A stretch of 64,000 nucleotides of DNA from Cafeteria roenbergensis (taxonomy: Eukaryota; Sar; Bigyra; Bicosoecida; Cafeteriaceae), in NCBI GenBank assembly GCA_008330645.1, contig VLTN01000005.1:1-64000 (forward strand). Reading direction: 5' to 3'. Made by a program: the position numbers and the translations under genes. The stretch's first letter is position 1. Every line of letters starts with the position of its first letter. Shown one piece after another: positions 1 to 61,350 of this stretch. The notes beneath the pieces are model-generated. The model searched no databases. It was not told where the DNA came from and saw only the letters and a program-made list of their open reading frames with translations.

Positions 1-1326
1 ACGAGCCTCCTCCTCAGCCTTCAAACGAGCCTCCTCCTCAGCCTTCAAACGAGCCTCCTCTCAGCCTTCAAACGAGCCTCCTCCTCAGCCTTCAAACGAG
101 CCTCCTCCTCAGCCTTCAACCGAGCCTCCGCCTCAGCCTTCAAACGAGCCTCCTCCTCGGCCTTCAACCGAGCCTCCTCCTCAGCCTTCAAACGAGCCTC
201 CTCCTCGGCCTTCAAACGAGCCTCCTCCTCAGCCTTCAAACGAGCCTCCTCCTCAGCCTTCAAACGAGCCTCCTCCTCAGCCTTCAAACGAGCCTCCTCC
301 TCAGCCTTCAAACGAGCCTCCTCCTCAGCCTTCAACCGAGCCTCCTCCTCAGCCTTCAAACGAGCCTCCTCCTCAGCCTTCAAACGAGCCTCCTCCTCAG
401 CCTTCAAACGAGCCTCCTCCTCAGCCTTCAAACGAGCCTCCTCCTCAGCCTTCAAACGAGCCTCCTCCTCGGCCTTCAAACGAGCCTCCTCCTCAGCCTT
501 CAAACGAGCCTCCTCCTCAGCCTTCAAACGAGCCTCCTCCTCGGCCTTCAAACGAGCCTCCTCCTCAGCCTTCAAACGAGCCTCCTCCTCAGCCTTCAAA
601 CGAGCCTCCTCCTCAGCCTTCAACCGAGCCTCCTCCTCAGCCTTCAAACGAGCCTCCTCCTCGGCCTTCAAACGAGCCTCCTCCTCAGCCTTCGAACGAG
701 CCTCCTCCTCGGCCTTCAAACGAGCCTCCTCCTCAGCCTTCGAACGAGCCTCCTCCTCGGCCTTCAAACGAGCCTCCTCCTCAGCCTTCAAACGAGCCTC
801 CTCCTCAGCCTTCGACCGAGCCTCCTCCTCAGCCTTCAAACGAGCCTCCTCCTCAGCCTTCAAGCGAGCCTCCTCCTCAGCCTTCAAACGAGCCTCCTCC
901 TCAGCCTTCAAACGAGCCTCCTCCTCAGCCTTCAAACGAGCCTCCTCCTCAGCCTTCAAACGAGCCTCCTCCTCAGCCTTCAAACGAGCCTCCTCCTCAG
1001 CCTTCAAACGAGCCTCCTCCTCAGCCTTCAAACGAGCCTCCTCCTCAGCCTTCAAACGAGCCTCCTCCTCGGCCTTCAAACGAGCCTCCTCCTCAGCCTT
1101 CAACCGAGCCTCCTCCTCGGCCTTCGACCGAGCCTCCTCCTCAGCCTTCAAACGAGCCTCCTCCTCAGCCTTCAACCGAGCCTCCTCCTCGGCCTTCAAA
1201 CGAGCCTCCTCCTCAGCCTTCAAACGAGCCTCCTCCTCAGCCTTCAACCGAGCCTCCTCCTCAGCCTTCAAACGAGCCTCCTCCTCAGCCTTCAACCGAG
1301 CCTCCTCCTCGGCCTTCGACCGAGCC
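1..1326 (-). repeat. 24-bp tandem array encoding KAEEEARL octapeptides
   Basis: About 55 head-to-tail copies of a 24-base unit that reads KAEEEARL on the minus strand. Units are nearly identical in DNA. The recurring differences are an A/G change in the Ala codon region, a CAAA/CAAC change before the Arg codon, and a change that turns the Leu into Ser (KAEEEARS). The unit at about 50-72 is 23 bases instead of 24, which shifts the frame and yields a nominal stop near position 45. The array runs into the left edge. The period of eight with alternating acidic and basic residues predicts a long charged single alpha-helix or coiled coil. Such uniformity at DNA level implies recent expansion by unequal exchange or slippage. 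Confidence 0.97.
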
Positions 1327-3838
1327 TCGTCTTCCTGTGCTACGCCTGGGGACGTGGCCCCTGACCCAGGGGCAGCCGCCGGTCGCGAGCTCGGCTCGAT
1401 CGATGTTGCCTTCAGAGCCACGAGTCGCTTTTTGTAGGCGACGCGGACCATCCAACCCTTGACAAGATGGTGGATCGCCTGCGCAGCTGCAAATCGCATG
1501 TCTGCGTCGGACCTGGCAATGGCACTTCGCCACGCGCATTGGATCGTCACAGCGGCGGAGTGCGCTTGCGTCAACTCAGACCCCTGCTGAGACGCGAGCT
1601 TGGCATCAGCCGGCTTGGTGCTGCCGTCGGTGAGACAGGCGATGCCGGGCCACTTGAACGGCCTGGCTGGAATGCAAGGCGCGCCTGTGACCTTGGCCAC
1701 ACGGTGCCGCAGCGTGTTCAGGGGCACTTGCGAGAGCCTCACGACGGCTGCGCCAGGCCCGGCGTCGCTAGACCCGTCCGAGCGCAGCAGGCAGAGCAGC
1801 GTGGAGCCCGCCAGCGTGAGCGCTCGCGAGGCGCTGATGGCCACCGCAGGGGGAGGTATGACCGCAAAGTCCGCAATGTGCCAGCCCTTGGCAACACCCG
1901 TCCACTGCAGCACCGCAGCAGTTTCCGCAGACTTGCCCACTGATAGAATGTGGAGCGCGCGGGGCCCGATCGAGCAGATGGCGTCCTCGAACCCGGCGAT
2001 GGGCAGCCCGTCCGCTGAGCTTCCGTCTGGACACTGCTCGCCTGGCATGGTAATTGAGGCCCATGCAAGCACGCCAAGCGCGTGCTCTGTCCGCGACGCC
2101 TTCTCCTCGCTCGCGACATCGCTTGCCGAGCCAACCAGGCCGCTGGGGGCCAGGCCCTTGAGCTCCAGCTTGATTGTCCGCGCCACCTTGCCGGTCGCGT
2201 GCTCGGCCACCCACAGTCGGAAGCCCGGCCGTGCGCAGATGAGCAAGCGCTCGCCGGGGGCTGCAGAGGACGCGACGGCGTGGTCCTTGCTCCAGAGGGC
2301 ACCCATGGGGGCCTCCCGGGGCTTGGACCCGACGTTCCTGGCCGCAGGCTCGTCCGCGGGCGGGAGGACGGGCGCGGGGGCCGCCCCAGGCGGGATGTAA
2401 GTCGGCCGGAACGCGCGGGTCACAGAAACAACCGTCGTGGCGACCTCTGTTGAAATTGCCACAAGCTCGACATTGTCGGCGCGGCGAGACAGCCTGATTT
2501 GCCGAACAGGTGACGCTGGGTCGCACATATGAACGGGGCACGTGCGAGCCGCCTCCGGTGCAGCTGAAGCAGGCTGTGCTGCCGCGGCAGCCGCCGCCGG
2601 CTGCTTCCCCGGCGTTGCGGCACTGCTAGCCGCTGCCGGTCCGCTCAGCAGGCCCGTCGCCGCCCCCGCCTCAGGGCCTGGAGCGGCTGCTCGGCGCAGT
2701 CCGCCGAACAGCCCGCCGAGGCCGCGCGCGGCGGCGCCCAGCAGCGCGGTGGGGTTTGCCGCGGCTGCCACGCTGGCAGCTGCCGCTCGGCGCGCCTCCG
2801 CTTCCCTGAAGGCCCTTGAAGAGTGCGAGTGGCAGTGCAGGCTGGGGAGCGAGAGAGCTGGCAAGGCGGGCACAGGACCCACAGGCGCGGTGGCGTGCAC
2901 GCCCTGCGGCACGTGCGTGCACATGACCCCGCCCGATGAGTCTCCCGAGAACACTCGGGCTCCGCTGTAGCAGAATGTGATCGAAGATACAGACGTGCCA
3001 TGCTGCGCGACACATGTCCGACCAATCAGTGCCGGGGAGAGGCAGGGAGGGGGCAAAGGGGGAGCACGGAGGTGTGGCGGCTGGCATCGTGGCCGGGCGG
3101 CGCGCAGAATCGCCCGGCCCCGCGCCCTGGCCAATGCCAGTCGACTGCCCATACACCGGGCCGTTTCCTGGGGTGTGGCTGGCAGGCTTTGCTCACGTCG
3201 TGCACCGCCCCTGCGACAAAGAGGTCTTTGTGGGCGTCCGGCGCGAACACCTGCAGCACGAAGACGCGCCCAGACGACGTCCCCAACCCCGCAAGACGGG
3301 AGCAAGGGCTCAGGGCGATTGCGGTCACAGCTTCGCCGGCACGAGGTGACGGCAGCCTCGCCTTGCGGAGGTAGGCAGACGCGTCAGGGCCGTCTGCCTC
3401 GGCGGCGGCGTCGCGCACGCGGATGACGGCCACAGCGGCGTCCGAGGTCCTGCGGGACACACACGGAACCGCGAGGCCAGAGGCCCGGGCGTAAGCGCGT
3501 TGCAGCCGTGGCGCGCGCGGGCAGCAGGCTCGGTGCCACGGCAGCCTCCCTCCGCGCAAGGATTTGCCGCGGCGGCCGCGCTCTCGCCTTGCCTTCGCAC
3601 GGCCCCCCAGAGCCAGGCTCGCCGCGCCGTGCACGCGGCGGCATGGTTGGCGGGGATGCGGGTCTTTGCCGCGCTCCGGCTTGGCGGCCAAGTGGGGCGA
3701 TGGCAGTTCAACAAGGTGCAGCGCTCACCCGGCAACCATGTGGGTCCCGCAAGCGTCGATGCAATTGAAGGTTGGGCATGCAGCGGGTGGCAGGAAGGGC
3801 TCCGCGTGCAGCCACGGCCCCATGTCGGCCGTGGCCAT
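45..3838 (-). CDS. HPS5/TECPR2-type WD40 propeller protein with IQ motifs and KAEEEARL tail (3' end uncertain)
   Basis: Three exons fit: 3838-3729 (starting MATADMGPW), 3449-3197, and 3002 to the left edge. Introns are GT-AG (donors GTGAGC; acceptors CCGCAG and GCGCAG). The joined N-terminus reads ...[20 protein letters not shown]..., then [15 protein letters not shown], then [25 protein letters not shown] and ARPGFRLW. These match the N-terminal propeller of TECPR2 and HPS5 in order (VAVGSS, GTASGRVAVFQL, SITALAW, FSGDDKG, ASRPGLRLW). IQ-like helices follow ([14 protein letters not shown]), then the KAEEEARL array. A further intron near 2815-2920 is possible because that stretch is pyrimidine-rich on the coding strand. 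TECPR2 acts in autophagy and ER export, HPS5 in lysosome-related organelle biogenesis; which role applies here is not decidable. No tectonin repeats are visible. A one-base-short repeat unit near 60 sets the nominal stop, so the true end is probably outside the window. Confidence 0.75.
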
Positions 3839-48754: not shown

Positions 48755-51125
48755 TCACTCGACGACGTACCCCTGGGCTCGAACCTGGGAATCGCAGCTG
48801 AACCGGAAGGCCGCGCCCGAGGCCGGGTCCACGGCAGACTGTGGCGCAAAGCCCGAGAGCGAGCCGTGCGCCTCAAAGTCCACTGCGACTGGGAAGAAGG
48901 AGTCAGCGGAGTCGGCAGTCACGGTGAACTGCAGAGAGCCCGAGCCGTTGGCAGCGTCAACAGTGGACACGCGCCAGCGCAGCACGTTGTCGGCGGCCGA
49001 CGCGGACCCGTCGCAGTGGTCGATCACCGTGCCGGCCGAGCCGGACGGGAGCGGAACGGAAATGACGACGGACGTCAGGCTGATGCCAGGCCAGGCCGAG
49101 TCCTGCAACGAGAAGTCCACGCTGACCTGCCAGCGGCCGCCGCCGAGGGCGTCCGGCCAGCAGGACACGAGCAGCGGTGCCATGTCAGGGTCCTCCGACG
49201 TGGCCTTCCAGCGCAGCACCTTGGACCCGCGGCCGCCTAGCGGGAAGGCCTTGGTCGGGCAAATCACGGACTCGGCGCTCCAGCGGCCCTTGTCCATGCT
49301 GGGGTGAGCCTGGAAGATGAACGCGCCCGAGCCAGGGGCGCAGTGCACGGCCGCCCCCCGGGCCGCCTCGTCGTTCACCTTGAGCACGAGGTCCCCCTTG
49401 ACCTCCAAGGCGCGGATGCCGCCGTCCTTGAAGATGGCGCAGCTCACTACCTCCGTGACGCGGGCCTCCACCTGCGACGCGACAGCGGCAGCGGCGCGGG
49501 CAGCCGCCTCGGACACGGCCTGCTCGGCGGACACGGGCGCGCCGGCCTCCGCAGCGGCACCGGCCGTCGTGGGCGAGGTGCTCGCGATCCCCATCTCCCG
49601 GAGCGCCGAGTCGGCGCCGGCGGCCTTGCCGCCAAGCGAGAGCCCAGCGCGCTTCTTTCCAAGCTGCAGCCCGCCTGCCCTGGAGGTGCCCGCCCCGGCG
49701 GTGTCCCTGGCCGCCGCGCGCGCGGTTGCCGCTGCCCCCGCAGCCATGGCCGCACTGCTGCCGGCGCTGCCGGACCCCGAGGAGGACCCCACCCCCGAGC
49801 GAGACCCGCCCATGCCCCCTCCCGCGCCGCCCATGCGGACGCCCCCCGAGCCAACACCGCCCATGGAGGAGCCGACGCCCGGCATGGAGCGGCCGAAGCC
49901 TTTGCGCTTCGAGTCGGCAATCGCAGACTCCGCGGACTTGCGCTCCGACGCAGCAGCTTCCATGCGCGACTTCTTGATCATCTTGTCGAGGCGCTCCTCG
50001 TGGCTGTCCATCTCCATGAAGGTCCTGATCTGCTCGAGCGTGACCTGCTCCGCCTGGCCGCCGGCCGAGATGGCCTCGTCCAGCGCGCAGATGATCTCGA
50101 ACGCGCGGTCCGTCACCGTGGCCTCGGACACGTCGCCGTCCATAGACATGCCGAACTCGGGCACGCACTTGGACGCCAGCTGCAGCGTGGACAGGTCCTC
50201 CACAATGTTGGAGCCCTTGGTGGTGATAAGCACCACGTGCATGCCCTCGATCGGGAAGTACACGTACCGGACGGAACCCGTCTCAATGAAGGTGTGCTGC
50301 CGGGACTTGTCCTGGCCGGAGAGGAGCTTCGGGAAGGCCGCGAGCAGGCCCTCGATGCGCGAGCGCGGCATGTCCACGAACTGCCGGGCAACCAGCACTG
50401 CGCAGCCACAAGCAGGACAGCGAACAGAGCGCAACAGACCACGAGATGCGGTTGGCAGGGCGGGGCGGGGCGGGGCGGCACGCACGGTCGAGAGCCTCCC
50501 GGCCCGGCGCCCGCAAGCACGAAACTGGACCACTCGTGGGCGCGTTGTGCGACTGCCGCGCCACCAGCACTGACGCCTGCCCCCCCCCCCCACCTCTCCT
50601 CATTCGCCTCTGCTCTCTCGCCTGTGCGCGTGCTCAGGTTGCGGACGAGGCCCAGGCCGCGGCGCAGCTTTCGCCGCAACTCTCGAGCAGAGGCCCGCCC
50701 GCAATCCGTCCGCGGACACGACTGCGACGGCGGCGCAAGCGGCCGCCGCTTGCCCCGCCCGTCAACCCTCGCAATAGGGGCGGTGAGCGCAGCAGGCCCT
50801 CGTCCAGCAGACGCCCCACCCGCGCTCCGCGCACGAGCCGGCGAAAGCAAGGCGACGGCATGGCGCCCCGCGAGCCCCGCTGGCAGGCGTCGGCGCCCCG
50901 CTGAAGTCCCTGCCCCCCTCCCCCGCCCCCGGGTGGGCAATATCCGCGGCGTCGCCGACCCCCGGGCGACTCGGGCGGTGCGGCGAACCCGGGACCGGCC
51001 GACGTGGCGAGCGGAGCGGCGGCGCCGAACGGCGCGGCTCCGGCGTGGAACCAGCGCGGAGGGCGCGCGGCGCGAAGCTCACCCTTTCCGTGGCGACCGA
51101 GGACGGCCGCGGAGAGCACTACCAT
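48755..51125 (-). CDS. ARCN1: Coatomer subunit delta (delta-COP, archain)
   Basis: Exon 1 is 51125-51083 (MVVLSAAVLGRHGK plus one base), exon 2 is 50397-48755; GTGAGC donor, GCGCAG acceptor. The junction gives VLVARQFV, which aligns without gaps to the human start (MVLLAAAVCTKAGK then AIVSRQFV). 561 residues. The N-terminal longin-like domain is highly conserved (RIEGLLAAFPKLLSG, HTFIETGSVRYVYFPIE, VLITTKGSNIVEDL, QIRTFMEMDSHEERL). A Gly/Ala/Met-rich linker (about 195-300) follows, then the mu-homology domain (about 325-561). Delta-COP is part of the COPI F-subcomplex for Golgi-to-ER retrieval; its mu-homology domain binds Dsl1/tethers and cargo. The 685-base intron is the longest found here. 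It shares a 229-base divergent promoter with RPL4. Confidence 0.97.
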
Positions 51126-51354
51126 TGCGGGACCCTGCGCAGTGCGCGGCGGCGGCGCGGCGGGCTGCTGGGCGGCGGGGGACCGTTCGCCCACACGTGG
51201 AGCGGCAGCATGCGCGGGCGATGCGCCCGCCCGGCAGAGCCGGCCCGGCCAGCGGGTGGCTGGCGGCGGACCGACGTCGTGCCGTCAAGAAGTCAGGCGC
51301 CGGCCCCGCCCTCACCCTGTTCGTTCGTGCGCCCTCGCGAACAACTTCTTCACC
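51126..51354. promoter_or_regulatory. Divergent promoter between delta-COP and RPL4
   Basis: 229 bases between opposing ATG codons. The RPL4 side ends in a pyrimidine-rich leader (cttcttcacc before the ATG), a feature reminiscent of ribosomal-protein mRNAs. No TATA box. Confidence 0.5.
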
Positions 51355-52705
51355 ATGGTGCGTCGTTCGGCAAAGCGCTGCCTGGCGAGGCCCGGTGGCC
51401 GCAGCGCCCCGCGCCGAGCCTGTGCGTGCCGGCGCTGCCGGCTGCGAAGGGCGCTTGCCGATTTTTCCCTTGCCCCTCCCTCCTGCGCTGCCCCCACCCC
51501 CCTCGCAGGCCGCTGCCCGCCCCCTGGTGAACGTGTACAACGCCCTCTCGGACGACACCGAGGTGTCCGGCTCCGTGGAGCTCCCGGGTGTGTTCTCGGC
51601 TCCCATCCGCCGCGACCTCGTGCACCTCGTGCACAAGAACATGGCCAAGAACTCCCGCCAGGCCTACGCCGTGAACAAGGATGCTGGCATGCAGCACTCC
51701 GCCATCTCCTGGGGCACCGGCCGCGCCGTCGCGCGTATCCCCCGTGTGGCCTCCTCGGGCACCCACCGCTCCGGCCAGGCTGCCTTCGGCAACATGTGCC
51801 GCAAGGGCCGCATGTTCGGCCCGACCAAGACGTGGCGCAAGTGGCACCGCAAGATCAACGTGAACATGCGCCGCTTCGCTACCGCCTCCGCCGTGGCCGC
51901 CACTGGAGTGACCCCGCTCGTGATGGCCCGCGGCCACCGCATCGAGTCCCTCAACGAGGTCCCCCTCGTGCTCGACAACCTTGACGGCGTGTCCAAGGTC
52001 AAGGAGGCCCTCGCCATCCTCGCTCGCTTCGGCGCCGACGAGGACGTCGAGCGCGTCAAGGACTCCAAGGCCAAGCGCGCCACCAAGGGCAAGATGCGCA
52101 ACCGCATGTTCCGCCAGCGCCGCGGCCCCCTGGTCATCCACGCCCAGGGCAAGGACGGCGACAAGGGCCGCCCCCTTGTTGAGCTTGCCTTCCGCAACAT
52201 CCCCGGCGTCGAGATCGCGCACGTGGACCGCCTCAACCTCCTCCAGCTCGCCCCCGGAGGCCACATGGGCCGTTTCTGCATCTGGACCAAGGATGCCTTT
52301 GAGCGCCTCCCCGCGCTCTTCGGTGCCGCCCCCGGCGCCGAGGCCGAGCTCAAGTCCGGCTTCGTGCTCCCGCGCTCCGTGATGGCCAACGCCGACCTGG
52401 CCCGCCTCCTCAACTCCAGCGAGATCCAGGCTGCCCTCAACCCCAAGAAGGCCGGCCAGCGCAAGGTGCCCCGCAAGTCCAACCCCCTGCGCAACCGCGG
52501 CCAGATGGCTCGCCTCAACCCGTACTCCGTGCACCAGCGCCGCCAGGAGATCCTCGACGCCGAGGCCAAGGCCGCCGGCCGCGCCCGCGTGCTCCACAAG
52601 AAGCGCACCGAGTCCGACGAGAAGATCAAGGCCCGCCGTGTGGCGTCCCGCAACTTCTTCAAGTCCATGGTCAGCGACGACTGGACCTTCGGCGCGTCGG
52701 CGTGA
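51355..52705 (+). CDS. RPL4: Cytosolic 60S ribosomal protein uL4 (L4)
   Basis: Exon 1 contributes only the start codon (51355-51357); the intron 51358-51508 begins GTGCGT directly after the ATG and ends CTCGCAG. Exon 2 is 51509-52705. The protein (399 residues) begins M-AAARPLVNVYN, matching the eukaryotic L4 start. Hallmarks: SWGTGRAVARIPRV, GTHRSGQAAFGNMCRKGRMF, PTKTWRKWHRKINVNMRR, VMARGHRIE, APGGHMGRFCIWTKDAFERL and KSNPLRNRGQMARLNPY. The long central loop, which lines the exit tunnel, is intact. Strong use of C-ending codons suggests high expression. The C-terminal tail is shorter than in animals and ends SDDWTFGASA. Confidence 0.97.
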
Positions 52706-53265: not shown

Positions 53266-56097
53266 ATGGCGGCTCGCACGGACACCGGCGAGTGGGACGC
53301 AGCGAGTGTGGAATCGCACGAGGGAGAGCGCACCTCGATCGAGCGGCTTCAGATTGACGAGGACGACGAGGCTGCGCACGAGGTGGTGAGCGCGCCGGTT
53401 GGCGCCGGCTCGCCGCGGTCCGTCGGATCCGGGCGCGGCACACCCTCGGCGGCCGCGGCTGCGGACGAGTCCAACCCGGCGATGCTCCAGACGGCGCTTG
53501 CAGCGAGCGTCAAGGAGTGGGCCGCGGCGGGCTACACTCCGGACGCGCTCGGGTTTCTGGCCGACGAGCTCGTTTCGCTGCGCCAGGAGCAAACGGAGCT
53601 CCGGCAGTCCGTCGACGCGCTCGGCGGCCGAATGGATGCCGCCGTGGCGAGCATCATGGCGAGGCTTGCGTCCATTGCCGGGCCGGCGACGCCCACAGGC
53701 CGCCGCAGCCCCGCGACGCTGCTCGACTCCGCGGTGCACGGCATGCGACCGTCCTCGCCGTCCGGCGTGTCCCGCCTCACCGGCGAGGACAGGGCCGGGT
53801 CGCCTTCCCAGTTCGGCCCTCGGGGCGGCGACTCCTCTGGCCCGGCCAGACCCGCAGCGGGCGCCGGCGGGTCCGCACCCTCTTCCGCCGGCGCTGCCTC
53901 GGCGCAGCCGCCGCCCTCGGCTGCGAAGCACCGCTTCGCCGCCCCCCTCGGCATCTCCACGTCGGGAACAGACGACTCCCCTCGCGTTCCCGTGCACATC
54001 TGGGCCGGGACCTGGAACCTGGGCGCTGCGGAGCCCGTCGGGGGTGCCAAGGGCTGCAGCCGCGAGGACCTGTGCCGGTTCGCCGCGCCCGGGTACGACC
54101 TCTACGTGCTGGGGGTGCAGGAGGGCATGTCCGACGCCGTGTACGAGGAGTTCGCCGCGGCCACTGGCACGGTGCGCCTCAGCCTCACGGACGCTCAGAA
54201 GCGCGGCGGGGTGGCGTCGTCGTCGTCGGGCCCCATGGCCGTGGCCGGGCCGGGCGTGGGAACGGACACCCCCGGTGTGCCGCTGTCATCGGCGCTGTCC
54301 TCGTCAGCCGCGGCCGGCCAGGCCGGCATCGCGCAGGGGTCAAAGGCTGCCGACGCCGACAAGGTCCTCGGCCGCGGCGACGGCTCTCTGGTGTCGCTCA
54401 AGTTCACGGGCATCGCCGTCTTCGCCGCCCACCACGCCCTCCCGTACGTGCGGGTGATGCGCGCGGACCGCCTGAGCTTCGGCGCCACGGAGGGATCCAA
54501 GGGCGCCGTGGCGGCCGTGGTCAGAGTCCACAGGTCCACGCTCGCGTTCGTGTCCGTTCACCTGGCCTCGCACAAGGTCCCGGCGCGCCTCGTGCAGTAC
54601 CGCGACGTGTGCAAGAGCCTCGGTGCCAAGCTGGGCAACAGCTTCTTCCAGCTCAACGAGCAGTTTCACCACGTCGTGTTCATGGGCGACTTCAACTACC
54701 GCTGCGAGCGGATCGGGGGCGAGGAAGCCCTCGCCCTCATCCGCCGCGGCGCGGCCCACAGCCGGCTGCTTCCGCTCCACGACTCGATGCTGCGCCACAG
54801 GGCGGAGACTGGGGCCTGGGACGGCTATGATGAGCCCCCGATGGCCCCCACGCTCTGGCCGACGTACAAGAAGTACGAGCAGAGGCCTCTCACCGACACC
54901 ACCGTCGATGGCTGGGCTGCGGGCGTCTACCGCATCAAGTTCCGCGAGCCGGTCTATAAGGGGGGCCGCGTGATGGACCGCGTCCCCGGCTGGTGCGACC
55001 GCGTCCTCGCGCGCTCCCACCCCCACCTCCGGCCCTACTTCTTCCCGCTCACGCGCGACGAGGCCGAGCGCGTTGCCTCCGGCGCCGCCCCGGACGACGC
55101 GGAGTCCTTCTCCGAGCCCCAGCGCAGGGCCGCAAGCTCCCTCGCCCTTCCCGCCTGGGCCCTCAGCGGGGCGGCAGAGCCCCTGGACTACGGGGAGGAC
55201 GGTGCCGACATCGACCCCCGGCTGGAGTCGTCCTACGACTCGGTCAACGACGTCCTCACCGTGTCCGACCACTCCCCTGTGCGCTGCGTCTTCCGCCTCC
55301 TGGCCTTCCGCGACCCGATGGACGACTTTGGCGACGGGCTCGACGCGGTGCCGGTGTGCCTGCGCGACGCCGTCGTGGCCGCGGCCAGCGCAGCGCCCGG
55401 CGCGGCCGCCGCCGCTTCGGCAGTGGCTGACGGGGCGCCGGGCTCGCCGGTGCGCTCGCTGGCCTCCAAGACGTCCCCCCTCATGGGGCCCTCCTCGGGG
55501 GTGGCGGCGGCTTCGGCGGCCCGAGCCGCGGCCGTCTCTGCGCCCCCCTCGGTCGAAGCGGACCCCGACGGCCGCCTCAGCTCGGCCTCCTCCAGGCGCA
55601 GCTCCCAGCTCACGCAGCCCGCCCCCCGCATCGGCTCCGCCTCCCTCGCGTCCGTCGACCCAGGGGCGGTCACTGCCGCCGTTCACGCCGTCCTCCGCAT
55701 CGACCGCATCGAGCTCGTGCGCGGCGAGGGGAGCGTGCTTGTGCCGCAGGTGGCCAAGCTTCTGTGCCCTGCGCCCTTTGAGCTCGACGACGGCGCCCCC
55801 GCCGAGGTCCGAGTCGTCAAGACCAAGGCCGGCCTCAGTGCCACCGTGACCCTCTCCACGCGTGCCCCGGCAGCCCTCCCCCGCCTCCACGCCATCCTCA
55901 AGGTGCAGGTGGATCGCTCCACCAAGGGCCACTGCGTGGTGCCCCTGCGCCCGCTCTTCGCGGCCCTGGACGCCTCGGGCCGCGCGGAGCACTCCTTCTT
56001 CGCCCCCATTGCCTCCGACGGCATCTCCAAGGCCGGTGTGGCGGTCGCGCCCGCCCACGCCCAGTTCCAGGCCTCCCTGCAGCTGCGCCGGGTCTGA
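53266..56097 (+). CDS. Inositol polyphosphate 5-phosphatase (type II-like)
   Basis: Intronless, 943 residues from ATG 53266. After an acidic N-terminus (residues 1-60) a coiled-coil segment is seen at about 95-140 (ELVSLRQEQTELRQSV). The catalytic domain (about 240-680) has the family motifs in order: WAGTWNLG, VLGVQE, SVHLASH, MGDFNYR (about 475), VPGWCDRVL (about 575) and SDHSPV (about 668). These carry the Mg-binding and catalytic Asn, Glu, Asp and His residues. It removes the 5-phosphate from PI(4,5)P2, PI(3,4,5)P3 or soluble inositol phosphates. A low-complexity link leads to a beta-rich C-terminal domain (about 805-943; ILKVQVDRSTKGHCVVPL), perhaps immunoglobulin-like (SKICH or ASH type). 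No RhoGAP or SH2 domain is present, so it is neither full OCRL nor SHIP. Confidence 0.93.
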   Translation: MAARTDTGEWDAASVESHEGERTSIERLQIDEDDEAAHEVVSAPVGAGSPRSVGSGRGTPSAAAAADESNPAMLQTALAASVKEWAAAGYTPDALGFLADELVSLRQEQTELRQSVDALGGRMDAAVASIMARLASIAGPATPTGRRSPATLLDSAVHGMRPSSPSGVSRLTGEDRAGSPSQFGPRGGDSSGPARPAAGAGGSAPSSAGAASAQPPPSAAKHRFAAPLGISTSGTDDSPRVPVHIWAGTWNLGAAEPVGGAKGCSREDLCRFAAPGYDLYVLGVQEGMSDAVYEEFAAATGTVRLSLTDAQKRGGVASSSSGPMAVAGPGVGTDTPGVPLSSALSSSAAAGQAGIAQGSKAADADKVLGRGDGSLVSLKFTGIAVFAAHHALPYVRVMRADRLSFGATEGSKGAVAAVVRVHRSTLAFVSVHLASHKVPARLVQYRDVCKSLGAKLGNSFFQLNEQFHHVVFMGDFNYRCERIGGEEALALIRRGAAHSRLLPLHDSMLRHRAETGAWDGYDEPPMAPTLWPTYKKYEQRPLTDTTVDGWAAGVYRIKFREPVYKGGRVMDRVPGWCDRVLARSHPHLRPYFFPLTRDEAERVASGAAPDDAESFSEPQRRAASSLALPAWALSGAAEPLDYGEDGADIDPRLESSYDSVNDVLTVSDHSPVRCVFRLLAFRDPMDDFGDGLDAVPVCLRDAVVAAASAAPGAAAAASAVADGAPGSPVRSLASKTSPLMGPSSGVAAASAARAAAVSAPPSVEADPDGRLSSASSRRSSQLTQPAPRIGSASLASVDPGAVTAAVHAVLRIDRIELVRGEGSVLVPQVAKLLCPAPFELDDGAPAEVRVVKTKAGLSATVTLSTRAPAALPRLHAILKVQVDRSTKGHCVVPLRPLFAALDASGRAEHSFFAPIASDGISKAGVAVAPAHAQFQASLQLRRV

Positions 56098-56619
56098 CCT
56101 GCTCGGGCAGGCCGACACCCCCCCCCCCCGCCACAGGAGCCTCCACGCTCGCCGCGGCCCCTCGCCGCCGTTGCCCGCCCTCTCGCGGCATGACACGCCC
56201 TGCCAGCTTGCCACGCGTCACGGGCTCGGGCGACCTTGCGCTCGCGCTCGCGCGCGACAACCTTGCGACCTTGCCGCGTCGCCTCTCCACGCGGCCGCCA
56301 GTGCGGCCGCCAGGCCGCTGCACGAGCGGAAGCCCGCCGATCAGTATTTCCACGCTTCGAGACGATTGCGTCCGTGTGTCTGCGTGTGCCAGTGGCTCGC
56401 CACGCAATCCAACATTGATTTCACCACGCCATGCGGCTCTGCTTGCTCGTGGTTGCACGCGCATTTCCACGAGGCGCGCGGGCGCCCGCGCGTGCCCCGG
56501 CTGCTCACGCCGGATCTTGCACTCCTCTGGCGCAGCACCCTTGCCAACCGCGTGGTGGCCGACGCTTGCGCGCCCGCGTGCGCGCCCCATCGAGAAGCGT
56601 CTCCAGGCTGGGGCGACCG
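56098..56619. other. Intergenic upstream of the MRH/NSF-like gene
   Basis: 522 bases with a C-rich run at about 56117-56129. The downstream gene's frame is open back to an ATG at 56431, but that extension is low-complexity and Arg/Ala-rich, so it is treated as leader. No other gene seen. Confidence 0.45.
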
Positions 56620-59600
56620 ATGAGCGGTCGCGCGCGGCTCCGGCATCGCAGGGACGGAGCGCCCCGGCTCGCGCCCGGCACCTGGCCGCGCGTCAACGGG
56701 CCGCGCATTTGCGCTCCACGGCGGGCTGGGGTGGCGACGCGCCTCGTCCTCGCTGCGCTTCTGCTTGCCGCCGGCCTTGTGCCTCCAGCAACCGCGAGCC
56801 CGCAAGTCTGCCAGGAGCGCGTGACGAGCTTCTTCGACGCTGCAGGACTGTCGCTACCGGAGGGAGGAAGTTCGCTGTTTGGGCAGGTGCTGTCGTTCGC
56901 GATGGAAGATCCCAAGGGGGCCATGTTTCGCGTCGGAATCTGTGCGCCCATTTTTGACTGCCGATCCGCCGCTCAGGGCGAGGCGCTCGCGGGTCGCGAC
57001 ACCCCCGACCTGGCAGCGTCGTGCATTCGCGTCGCGTCCTATGCAGATGCTGGCGGGGCGCTGTCGGCCCAGAACGTAGCGGTGTCGGGCACGGGGTCGG
57101 GCCAGCCGGGCTTTCGACTGACGTACAGCGGCGGCGCCAGGTGCCAGGCTGCGTCGCTTCATCCGCTTCGAGTCACAATCCTCGACGTCATGTGCGTTCC
57201 CGGAAGCCCAAGCAAGCTGGTCAGCGTCACCGAGGGCAAGGGGGACCAAGTCTGCTCCTACCACGCGGTGCTGATCAGCGCTGCTGCGTGCGCTGCGCCG
57301 CGGCCCGCCGGCTCGGCCGAGCTCCACCCCAGCGACCGCCGCCACGACCCCCGCCACCAGCAACAGCAGCGGCAGCCGCCCGTGCACGAGGAGAGCCCCG
57401 CGACGTCTGCCGGCGCAGCGCCGCCCCTGGCTGGCAGGGGCTGGGCCGCCGGCCAGGTGCTGGCCGAACCCACCTCGCTGGCCGCAGCGCGCGCGGCCTC
57501 GAGGCCGTGCTCGCTTGCCGAAAACGGCGCCGTTGCAACTGCGCCATGCCTGCCCGGTGGCGGCTTCGTCGGGCTCAGCGCAGCCGGATGCAGCGCGGCC
57601 CCCGCCGCAGGAGCGGCGCCCGCGCGCCGCGTCACCGGATGCTCGTCAGGGGGCGGCGGCGCAGTAGTCTCCGTCTCTGGCCTGGCCCCGCCAGGCTCTC
57701 GCCTCGTTGGGGCGTGGGTGGGGAGCACTCCATGCCAGGCCATCGGCTTGTCCCGCGACCCAGCGCCTCCTGAGGCCCAGACGCTGCCGCCGCCCCTGGG
57801 CATGGTGGCAAAGCTCGCTCCCGGCGCATGGTGCGCGCTCCCCCGGATGTTCGGCCACAACCTGACGCTGAGCGTGGCGCTCGCGCGCATGGACGCGCAC
57901 GGGGGGCAGGAGGAAACGGTTCTCGTTTCGCTGCCCCGCGCGGTGTCGTTTGACCTCGCCTTCGACCCTCTCAGAATCGACCCCGTGTCAGCCCTGGGAG
58001 TGGGCGGCTTGGGCCCCCAGGTGCGCTCCTTGTTTCGGCGCCTCTTTGCGTCGCGCGTGGTCCCGGAGCACGTGCTGCGCGCGACTGGCACTTCGCACGC
58101 CCGTGGCGCGCTCCTGCACGGGCCCCCCGGCACCGGAAAGACAACGCTTGCGCGAGCCATCGCCCGCTTCGTCGGCGCGCACGTCCAGGCGGTGTCCGGG
58201 CCCGAGGTCATGTCCAAGTTCGTGGGCGACTCCGAGGCCAAGGTGCGAGCCCTGTTTGCGCCCGCTGAGGAGTCCTACAGGCGGCTGGGGGCGGCTGCGC
58301 CCTTGCACCTGCTCATCCTGGACGAGGCCGACTCGCTCTTTGCCAAGCGCTCGGGCCTCGGGGCAAGCGACGCCCCAGCGCAGCGGCTGTACGACAACGT
58401 CGTGAACCAGTTTCTGGCCAAAATGGACGGCGCCGAGGAAGCCACTCCCAACCTGCTCGTCATTGCCCTCACGAACCGCATGTCGCTGCTGGACCCCGCC
58501 GTGCTGCGGCCGGGCCGGCTCGAGGTCCACGTGGAGGTGCCCTACCCCTCCGCGGCAGGCCGGGCCGAGATTCTCCAGCTGCACACGCAGCCCCTCCGAG
58601 AGGCGGGCATGCTGGGGCCAGACGTTGACATCGCGGCGCTCTCCGGCGCCCCCACCCAGGGCCTCTCGGGCGCCGACATTGCCGGCGCGGTCCGGGACGC
58701 GGCCGCTCACGCGGTGAGCCGCGCCTTTGGCGGAGAGGAATCTGTCCCGCCTGAAGGTGCCGGCGACGCAACCGCTCGCAGTGGCGCCGGCACGGAGTCA
58801 GGAGCGGATGGCAGCCCTGCGCCGGGTGCGCAGCCGGGGCCGGTGATGGTGGTCGCCCGTGACCTGGCCGAGGCCGCAGCGGCCGCCCGGCACGCCGTCG
58901 CGGCCCGCGCCGACGGCAGCCAGGAGAGCGAGCGTGGCGTCCAGCCCGACTCGCTGCGCGCCTGGATGCAGCCGGGCGGCCTCCTCCCGCTGCCCCCGCT
59001 GCAGGCCGCGCTCGACGACGCCATCGACGCGGTCGCGCTGCAGCTGGGGTGGCTGGCGCCGACGCCGCTGGTGGGACCCGCAGCCGCGCGCGCGGCGTTG
59101 ATTCACAGCGCGCAGGAGGCTAGAGCGTCCCTGGGAGCCGTCCCGGCTGCAGGGCCACCGCCATCGCGGCTCTCTCGTGGCGCGCCCGGCGCGGCACACG
59201 GCAGCGGCGGCGGGCCGGCAGCGGCCAACGGGGCCATGGCTGCGCGGCTCGCCGCGGCCACGGCCGCGGGCCGCTCCGGCCGCTTCGCTTCGGTGCTGCT
59301 GCACGGGCCGCGGGGGGCGGGCAAGTCGGCGCTCGCCGCAGAGGTCGCTGCAGCGTTTGCCTCGCACTCGGGCCTGCTGCCGGCGTGCGCACGCGCAGCG
59401 GACGGCGTGGCCTCCCAGCGGGACCTCCTCGCCCTGGCCGCTCACGCCGCAGCGGGCACATGGCAGAACGACCTGGCCGGACCATGCCCCGGCGCGGAGG
59501 GCGTGCCGCTGACAAGCCCGTCCATCCGGGTGGTGCGCCCCGCCCCCCTGCTCCCCCTCCAGGAGCACGCGCGCGTGGCGGCGATCCGCTCCGCGTTCGA

Positions 59601-60546
59601 GGCGGCCCAAGCCGCGTGCACGCCCTCCCCGTCCAACGCGGCGCTCGCCAGGGACGCTGCTCCCGCTGCCGGCGCGGATGGCGCCGGGGCGGTGCTGCAG
59701 TGCGCGGGCGTGGTGCTGCTGGACGACCTGGAGGGGCTGCTGGAGGCGGTGCGCGAGCAGTCGAGCGGGAGAGCGCATGCGTCCAGGGCTGTCGCGCACG
59801 CGCTGGGGGTGCTGCTGCGCGGGCTGGCGGCGCCGTCCGCGCCCAGCGGCCGAGCGGCGGGGGCGGTGCTCGTGGTCGCCACTGCGCGCTCGCCCTCCCT
59901 GCTGGCCGGGCTCGGCTTGCTTGAGTCCTTCGGGGCGGCGGTGCGGGTGCCGGAGCTGGCGGGCGACAGCGCGGTGGCGGCCATCCGGTCGCTCGGCGTG
60001 CGGGTGCCGGACCTGCGACTGGACGACCCCAGCCGTCGCCATGGCAGCGGTGCGGCGCATCCGCGCGCGCCTGCGGCTGTGGCCACCACGGGAGTGCCCG
60101 GCGTGCCGTGGGGAGCAGAGGTTCCTGTGTCGCAGCTTGTGCAGCTCGGCGGGACCCTTCACGCGCTCCCAACCGGAGCCCAGGCCGCGCAAGCAGGACC
60201 CGCCCGCGGCGGCAGCGGCGCGCGGGGCGGGCTGGCGCGCGCCTCTGCGCTGCGCGCGATGTCGCGCCAGGTGATGGCCTCGACGCTGCTGCGGGCGCCC
60301 GGGCCTTGGCAGGTCGAGGGCGAGAGCGCGGCCCATGCCCCGCCGCACGCAGCATCTGCCTTCGCACAGGTGAGGGCAGTCAGCGCCGACGAACCAGTGA
60401 CCACGGTCGACGAATGGACAGTTGCCCAAGTGGTGCGCAGGCTGGGAGTCGGCGGCGCCGGCACGGACCTGGGATGGGCAGACGACGGAAGCGGCTATTC
60501 CATGGCCGACGGCGTTTTTGTCATCGACCCAGCCGTCGAGGCGTGA
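56620..60546 (+). CDS. Signal-peptide/MRH-lectin/NSF-like double AAA ATPase fusion
   Basis: One uninterrupted frame, 1308 residues from ATG 56620 (in-frame ATG 56431 would add 63). Residues about 40-60 form a signal peptide or signal anchor (TRLVLAALLLAAGLVPPATA). About 61-228 is Cys-rich and fits the mannose-6-phosphate-receptor homology pattern: LTYSGGARC, R-x-TILDVMC, EGKGDQVCSYHAVLIS and AAC. After a linker and a poorly conserved stretch where NSF has its N domain comes GVGGLGPQV, then AAA D1: Walker A GPPGTGKTT (about 501-509), Walker B LLILDEADSLF (about 565), VIALTNRMSLLDPAVLRPGR. D2 has Walker A GPRGAGKS (about 897), Walker B VVLLDDLEGLL (about 1030) and LESFGAAVRVPELAG, as in NSF D2. 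NSF disassembles SNAREs in the cytosol; an MRH lectin is lumenal. No clear membrane helix lies between. Confidence 0.8.
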   Translation: MSGRARLRHRRDGAPRLAPGTWPRVNGPRICAPRRAGVATRLVLAALLLAAGLVPPATASPQVCQERVTSFFDAAGLSLPEGGSSLFGQVLSFAMEDPKGAMFRVGICAPIFDCRSAAQGEALAGRDTPDLAASCIRVASYADAGGALSAQNVAVSGTGSGQPGFRLTYSGGARCQAASLHPLRVTILDVMCVPGSPSKLVSVTEGKGDQVCSYHAVLISAAACAAPRPAGSAELHPSDRRHDPRHQQQQRQPPVHEESPATSAGAAPPLAGRGWAAGQVLAEPTSLAAARAASRPCSLAENGAVATAPCLPGGGFVGLSAAGCSAAPAAGAAPARRVTGCSSGGGGAVVSVSGLAPPGSRLVGAWVGSTPCQAIGLSRDPAPPEAQTLPPPLGMVAKLAPGAWCALPRMFGHNLTLSVALARMDAHGGQEETVLVSLPRAVSFDLAFDPLRIDPVSALGVGGLGPQVRSLFRRLFASRVVPEHVLRATGTSHARGALLHGPPGTGKTTLARAIARFVGAHVQAVSGPEVMSKFVGDSEAKVRALFAPAEESYRRLGAAAPLHLLILDEADSLFAKRSGLGASDAPAQRLYDNVVNQFLAKMDGAEEATPNLLVIALTNRMSLLDPAVLRPGRLEVHVEVPYPSAAGRAEILQLHTQPLREAGMLGPDVDIAALSGAPTQGLSGADIAGAVRDAAAHAVSRAFGGEESVPPEGAGDATARSGAGTESGADGSPAPGAQPGPVMVVARDLAEAAAAARHAVAARADGSQESERGVQPDSLRAWMQPGGLLPLPPLQAALDDAIDAVALQLGWLAPTPLVGPAAARAALIHSAQEARASLGAVPAAGPPPSRLSRGAPGAAHGSGGGPAAANGAMAARLAAATAAGRSGRFASVLLHGPRGAGKSALAAEVAAAFASHSGLLPACARAADGVASQRDLLALAAHAAAGTWQNDLAGPCPGAEGVPLTSPSIRVVRPAPLLPLQEHARVAAIRSAFEAAQAACTPSPSNAALARDAAPAAGADGAGAVLQCAGVVLLDDLEGLLEAVREQSSGRAHASRAVAHALGVLLRGLAAPSAPSGRAAGAVLVVATARSPSLLAGLGLLESFGAAVRVPELAGDSAVAAIRSLGVRVPDLRLDDPSRRHGSGAAHPRAPAAVATTGVPGVPWGAEVPVSQLVQLGGTLHALPTGAQAAQAGPARGGSGARGGLARASALRAMSRQVMASTLLRAPGPWQVEGESAAHAPPHAASAFAQVRAVSADEPVTTVDEWTVAQVVRRLGVGGAGTDLGWADDGSGYSMADGVFVIDPAVEA

Positions 60547-60721
60547 CTCGCCCCGTGTGCCCCACTCCCTCGCGCCGAGAGCCTCGGGCGGGTGCACAAG
60601 TGAATGGTCCAACGAGCGTGTGTGTTGTGCTGGCAGAGCCCAATGGTTGTTTCGCTGTTCGGAGCGCCAGCTCTCTCGACGGCCCTGTGCCACACTCGAG
60701 CACAGGCGCCTCCCGCCCGCA

Positions 60722-61350
60722 ATGGCCAGCGCCGGAAGCAAAGACGGGGGCGCGAGCCGAACCCCGACGACCGAGGAGCTGCGGGACTCGATCAAGTGCA
60801 CCGACTGCATGAACGCCCTCGCCTTTTGCTTCTGTGCGTCAGGCAAGCAGCGTTGGGCGGCCCGCCCTGCCCCCCAGTCCCAGGCGTAGCTGCAGCGCCC
60901 GTCGGCATCTGCCGCTGCGGCTGCTGCTGTGCCGCCGGCGCCCGGCCCTCCTGCAGCCACGTCACGCCGGCCCGCATGCTCCGCCCAATGTCTCGCAGCC
61001 CCGAGACACCAGTTTGACCTGTACTGGAGGCAAGGAACCTTTGACACGTGCGCAAAGCAGTTCGAAGAGCTGCGTTTCTGCTATTCCCTGAAGACAGCCG
61101 ACTCGGCCAAGGCCAAGGTGGGCTCTGGCAGCCGGGCGCGGCGCCTCGGGCGCGAGCCGAGGGCTTGGCGCCAGCCCACTGCAAGCAACTCACTTCCGCT
61201 CCGCCGCCCGACACTGCGCAGGAGATGCTCCGCAAGCTCGCCCAGAAGCCGCCCAGCCCGACCGAGGGCAGCGTGTGGCAGGCCAGGCCCCTCAGTGACC
61301 CTGGCGTCGTCGCGCCCGCCGGCCCCGCCCCGCCCGCCGAGCAACGCTGA
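60722..61350 (+). CDS. EMI1: Twin-CX9C protein of the EMI1/DUF3128 family
   Basis: Three exons: 60722-60833, 60999-61117, 61222-61350; 119 residues. Donors GTGCGT and GTGGGC, acceptors CGCAG; phases agree. The spliced protein shows C26-x9-C36 and C55-x9-C65 (CTDCMNALAFCF, SPRHQFDLYWRQGTFDTC, AKQFEELRFCYSLKT), a twin CX9C coiled-coil-helix fold. The arrangement CxxC...C, a YWRQGTFDTC core and a downstream Pro-rich tail ending PPAEQR match the EMI1 family of fungi, plants and animals. Twin-CX9C proteins are usually imported into the mitochondrial intermembrane space by the Mia40/Erv1 disulfide relay; yeast EMI1 is needed for early meiotic induction. The splice junction falls between the paired Cys motifs, so the motif is invisible in unspliced frames. 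Confidence 0.85.

Follow-up and report, generated by a model that had tools for sequence, protein, structure and literature searches.

We analysed a window of 64,000 nucleotides (nt), located at the beginning of contig 5 of the Cafeteria roenbergensis genome (36,303,456 bases in 167 contigs), and focused on the open frame at 56620-60546 of its plus strand. This uninterrupted frame, P0001, encodes 1308 amino acids followed by a stop, with a coding-frame signal from about 56731 to 60543. An initial annotation had placed in it a hydrophobic leader, an MRH lectin domain and two NSF-type AAA modules with Walker motifs. Our sequence analysis confirms this architecture as an observation, all of these parts falling within the 1308 codons left open in a single frame, and the frame is real and, most likely, a single gene.

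The first AAA module (D1; residues 455-706, 57982..58737, on the plus strand like all features of P0001 given below) is clearly of the NSF type, as judged from genome and PDB searches, an alignment and a tree. It carries a Walker A motif GPPGTGKT (58120..58143), a pore-loop-like KFVG (58216..58227) with identical letters in the separate NSF of the genome, a Walker B motif LDEADS (58318..58335) and, by alignment with the same NSF, a sensor TNR together with the arginine-finger region RPGRLE (58471..58524). The separate NSF, for which a search had been suggested, is indeed present on contig 1 (522358-526083, L015), and its D1 is 46% identical to that of P0001 over 246 residues. Both D1 modules grouped as a clade (support 100/99) when 12 modules were placed in a tree, namely those of P0001 and L015-L025 (11 of the 30 places found in the D1 search; L004 and L005 were inspected and then dropped, and the other 18 were given no locus). 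In the PDB, the D1 modules of NSF and Sec18 scored 229.5-236.1 bits, as compared with about 128-129 for each Cdc48 module in the alignment shown; Cdc48 chains top the ranking because their two modules are summed. By eye, the separate NSF gene contains two introns, both starting with GTGAG.

The second module (D2; 59230..60099) emerged from Pfam, PDB and genome searches as a diverged NSF-type D2 with long insertions, a Walker A motif GPRGAGKS (59305-59328) and a Walker B motif LLDDLE with its Asp-Asp pair (59716-59733). All seven PDB sequences matching it at E<=0.1 are NSF or Sec18, and in the genome it matches, apart from itself, only the D2 of the separate NSF (E 0.009). Its kinship to NSF thus appears weak but NSF-specific, weaker than that of D1. 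The AlphaFold2 model of D1-D2 was poor overall, with a mean predicted local distance difference test (pLDDT) score of 53.5 and blocks of 63-87 at model residues 51-220, corresponding to D1. The 50 Foldseek matches listed for this model (of 1757) were all NSF or Sec18 entries; since their template modelling (TM) scores by query were low (0.27-0.30), we take them as support for kinship only. No NSF N-domain model appeared among the 25 Pfam families listed (of 44), nor was one assigned to the linker between the MRH part and D1, and Pfam found no N domain in the frame of the separate NSF either. BLAST of this linker against the frame upstream of the separate NSF gave no significant similarity.

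Residues 61-228 (56800..57303) make up the MRH-type domain, indicated by a Pfam match, by a profile of MRH proteins from the same genome and by eight cysteines (64, 108, 114, 135, 175, 192, 212 and 224), the number seen in receptor-type MRH domains. Pfam PRKCSH_1 matched this part with an E value of 1.8e-4 and 21.7 bits, just missing the curated cut-off of 23. The genome-MRH profile, from which P0001 itself was omitted, gave this part 36.3 bits, whereas none of 2000 shuffles scored above 7.5 bits and the highest score among the other frames of the window (574 frames) was 11.1; two of its five rows (L009, L010, L011, L027 and L028), namely L027 and L028, had themselves been found with the MRH piece of P0001. 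With this piece as query, a genome search at E<=10 matched three non-self places, L027 (5e-5), L028 (0.002) and L029 (0.64), the first two of which contain MRH-family matches over the Pfam cut-offs. Profile searches of the PDB matched many MRH chains, which is not independent evidence as the profiles contain other MRH proteins. L012 and L013 were left out of the profile, their PRKCSH_1 scores being the same as that of L011 (21.6 bits, on three contigs).

On the other hand, two results do not favour an MRH assignment. A six-frame genome search with PRKCSH_1 (E<=1) returned five places, none of them the MRH part of P0001, and a phmmer search of the PDB with the MRH piece returned 0 sequences at E<=10. 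Modelling of this part with AlphaFold2, a folding check put forward initially, yielded no usable structure (mean pLDDT 40.7). A search with CIMR (PF00878) gave no match, which does not show absence. Weighing these results, we consider that residues 61-228 are related in sequence to MRH domains at a level above controls, so that the Cys-patterned, MRH-like domain of the initial annotation is retained.

Whether the MRH part and the AAA modules belong together cannot be read from the openness of the frame, which proves nothing because open frames here extend beyond the genes they hold, and we dropped it as evidence for a fusion (ribosomal protein L4 and an SDR gene are such cases). In the same window, L4 corresponds to residues 779-1111 of a 1154-amino-acid open frame (49241-52702, plus strand) that extends hundreds of codons upstream, where it is not coding-like. 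We relied instead on a three-periodic order-4 Markov coding model, trained on the window minus 56100-60800 and on five other 10-kb stretches. This model rejects 49241-51340 of the L4 frame (-9 to -31 nats/300 nt) and accepts it from 51341 onward, a control that is not fully independent as the L4 frame belonged to the starting set of the model. Along P0001 it gave, in nats/100 nt, +3.8 for 56731-57304 (MRH), +0.9 for 57305-57957, +6.8 for D1, +2.3 for the D1-D2 linker, +3.7 for D2 and +2.6 for the C-terminal tail, as compared with -8.9 downstream of the stop. Against a chance open frame without a gene, considered as another explanation and rejected, stand the domain matches and this coding-frame signal.

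The coding frame runs on from the MRH part into D1 with no frame-0 stop between them and with one weak stretch, and no other plus-strand frame is coding-like in between. The weak stretch begins in the low-complexity hinge (residues 229-290, 57304..57489), and it counts in part against a single gene. At 57305-57680 the frame scored -1.5 nats/100 nt, slightly below one minus-strand frame (-0.3); a minus-strand frame is the best of six at 57376-57525, and a near-tie at 57469-57669 was also seen with a simpler codon model. Frame 0 exceeds both other plus-strand frames by 28.9 nats at 57305-57680; a contrast of at least 28.9 nats occurred in 30 of 1296 frame cases from 216 windows rated non-coding by the model, 21 of these 30 also scoring at least as high as this stretch.

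These values bear on an alternative that we consider unlikely, in which a cytosolic NSF-like AAA protein would start downstream, no earlier than ATG 57802, with the MRH part being a separate or decaying reading that is merely open into the AAA gene. Frame-0 ATGs at 57802, 57847 and 57889 would serve such a start, and the drop in coding signal at 57305-57680 as well as the habit of frames to overrun genes, as with L4, agree with it. However, the MRH part and D1 share one frame without a stop, other plus-strand frames are not coding-like between them, and the same coding model rejects the overrun of L4. Moreover, if the MRH part were an independent gene, it could reach the required stop only by splicing to another frame, and no GTGAG or GTAAG donor was found in 56000-58700, where other GT words are present. 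For want of a donor of this type we also rejected an intron excising the lectin part, which the initial annotation had named as a refutation; the pattern GTGAG is known to us from two introns of one gene, the separate NSF, identified by eye. The Cafeteria genomes paper gives 1.67-1.89 introns per gene and, for the assembly of strain BVI, 70.1% guanine plus cytosine (PMC6972860).

The hydrophobic leader (residues 36-60, 56725..56799) is signal-peptide-like by Kyte-Doolittle hydropathy, no other stretch of 19 residues in the protein being as hydrophobic as residues 36-54 (2.12). A stretch of at least 2.1 occurred in 19 of 4909 open 62-amino-acid pieces from the six frames of the window, the gene itself included. 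By Kyte-Doolittle alone, no membrane-like helix lies between the MRH part and D1, the leader being the only such stretch before D1; both the leader and the lack of a second helix agree with what had been noted initially. A cleaved signal peptide seems likelier than a membrane anchor because the leader core is short. By the rules of membrane topology, the remainder of the chain would be lumenal in either case.

Frame-0 ATGs lie at 56431, 56620 and then 56902, and the ATG nearest the leader adds an Arg-rich N terminus of 35 residues (56620..56724) that is not coding-like. Indeed, 56620-56730 scored -7.1 nats/100 nt, which counts against this start; the coding signal begins near the leader and not at ATG 56620, which we therefore regard as a candidate only. 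An Arg-rich N terminus followed by a hydrophobic stretch could also be a mitochondrial bipartite presequence, placing the AAA modules at the inner membrane, and the 11 Arg and single acidic residue among residues 1-57 would suit it. We find this very improbable: most of the N-terminal stretch is not coding-like and may be untranslated, the kinship of D1 is with NSF, and MRH domains are a feature of the secretory pathway.

Considering these features, we are inclined to view P0001 as a paralogue of NSF that was redirected to the lumen of the secretory pathway, a reading we hold to be somewhat better than even. The leader, the MRH-type domain and a second Cys-rich region would replace the cytosolic, SNAP/SNARE-binding N domain of NSF and, after import, the whole chain would reside in the lumen of the endoplasmic reticulum (ER) or of a later compartment. 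The presence of a leader argues against a cytosolic site such as that of SNARE disassembly by NSF. A lumenal AAA+ machine, one of the options raised initially, is thus our best reading of the locus, its lumenal site being predicted from the leader and the lack of a second helix.

The distribution of cysteines is in line with such a location. The second Cys-rich region (57490..57957) has six cysteines (297, 310, 324, 341, 372 and 405) and one N-glycosylation sequon (N414); it had no Pfam match and no paralogue was found in the genome, nor did the linker between the MRH part and D1 have any other genome match at E<=10. With eight cysteines in the MRH part and six in this region, as opposed to none in D1 (three in the D1 of the separate NSF), a Cys-rich front joined to a Cys-free D1 would suit an oxidising compartment. 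This argument is modest since D2 has four cysteines, against three in the D2 of the separate NSF. Two further observations do not favour a lumenal location: N414 is the single N-glycosylation sequon in 1308 residues, and the C-terminal tail (60100..60546), which follows the low-complexity D1-D2 linker (58738..59229, delimited like the tail on the translation) and D2, ends in DPAVEA with no KDEL-type signal, whereas the glucosidase II beta frame of the genome ends in KDEL.

How such a protein would work can be proposed only tentatively. The MRH part and the second Cys-rich region may serve as a substrate adaptor presenting glycoproteins or complexes, a putative D1 ring may spend ATP on pulling at these or taking them apart, and D2 may mainly hold the ring together, as in NSF. 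P0001 would then be a second, independently evolved lumenal AAA+, in which the SNAP/SNARE adaptor was swapped for a glycan reader, yielding a glycoprotein unfoldase or complex-breaker; we regard this as possible, though clearly less probable than the rerouting itself. Our computations support the coding frame, the order of the domains, the relation of D1 and, less strongly, of D2 to NSF, the conserved ATPase motifs of D1 and the existence of a separate NSF gene; a single transcript, cleavage of the leader, the lumenal site, the ring and the class of substrate are all points that we infer.

The glycan-reading part of this proposal depends on the residues that bind the sugar. In glucosidase II beta the essential quartet consists of Gln-384, Arg-414, Glu-433 and Tyr-439, as given in a review (PMC9266668). 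In a MAFFT alignment with five other genome MRH rows, four of these rows have their Gln and Glu in the same columns as Gln119 and Glu205 of P0001, with Arg184 and Tyr214 also in place; the Tyr214 column is common to other MRH proteins of the genome, and the spacing of eight residues from Arg184 to the cysteine after it is that of glucosidase II beta. The quartet may therefore be whole. By eye, Ile136 occupies the place of the Gln in a comparison with a CI-MPR chain, and the spacing from Glu205 to the Tyr is three residues longer than in glucosidase II beta, so that the state of the quartet depends on the alignment chosen.

Such a displacement would fit a machine that is the same gene in the same compartment and is not directed by glycans, its MRH domain having lost sugar binding and acting instead in protein binding or sorting. 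That mannose 6-phosphate is not bound by many of the CI-MPR repeats adds to this possibility; the MAFFT columns, in which the quartet is maybe whole, speak against it. We consider it rather doubtful, and it overlaps with the lumenal NSF paralogue that we favour. Of the term lectin used initially, the MRH kinship stands and the lectin identity is not established.

Compared with known systems, P0001 resembles NSF and Sec18 in the Walker A, Walker B, sensor and arginine-finger residues of D1 and in an NSF-type D2 with an Asp-Asp Walker B. It differs from them in its leader, its MRH and Cys-rich regions, its predicted lumenal location and the long insertions in D2. To our knowledge, NSF-type motors are known only from the cytosol. 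With MRH proteins such as glucosidase II beta, OS-9, ATG27 and the mannose 6-phosphate receptors it shares a sequence match above controls and a leader in front; unlike them, it has its MRH domain fused to an AAA+ motor, and it has no KDEL-type end. Among the open-licence papers listed by our searches, neither an MRH-AAA fusion nor a lumenal NSF is reported in any title or abstract opening, which is not proof that none has been published.

Torsins, invoked initially as the precedent, are AAA+ proteins of the ER and nuclear-envelope lumen, a location that is only predicted for P0001. According to a 2020 review, they are Clp/Hsp100 relatives that depend on LAP1/LULL1 for their catalytic arginine, and the network formed by the ER and the nuclear envelope has no other AAA+ proteins (PMC7175109). 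P0001 has tandem NSF-type modules with D1 arginines at NSF positions. The Torsin family (PF06309) was absent among the 25 Pfam families listed (of 44) for P0001 and had no match at E<=1 in a six-frame search of the genome, P0001 included, that ignored introns and so does not prove absence. In view of the review's statement (PMC7175109), a lumenal NSF paralogue would be a second lumenal AAA+. With a glycan-reading adaptor, such a motor would mean that ATP-driven remodelling of folded glycoproteins is possible within the ER or Golgi, and that an ancient motor can shift compartment through a swap of its front end.

A scan of GTDB for relatives with six short peptide patterns gave six loci, matching 33-45 residues around the D1 Walker A only, and the same kind of scan of IMG/VR gave no match. 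Elsewhere in the window, the contig starts within an array of near-identical 24-base units (positions 1-1200 were inspected), which falls in a 1112-codon open frame at 48-3383 on the minus strand. Also on the minus strand, 25798-45981 is open without interruption over 6728 codons.

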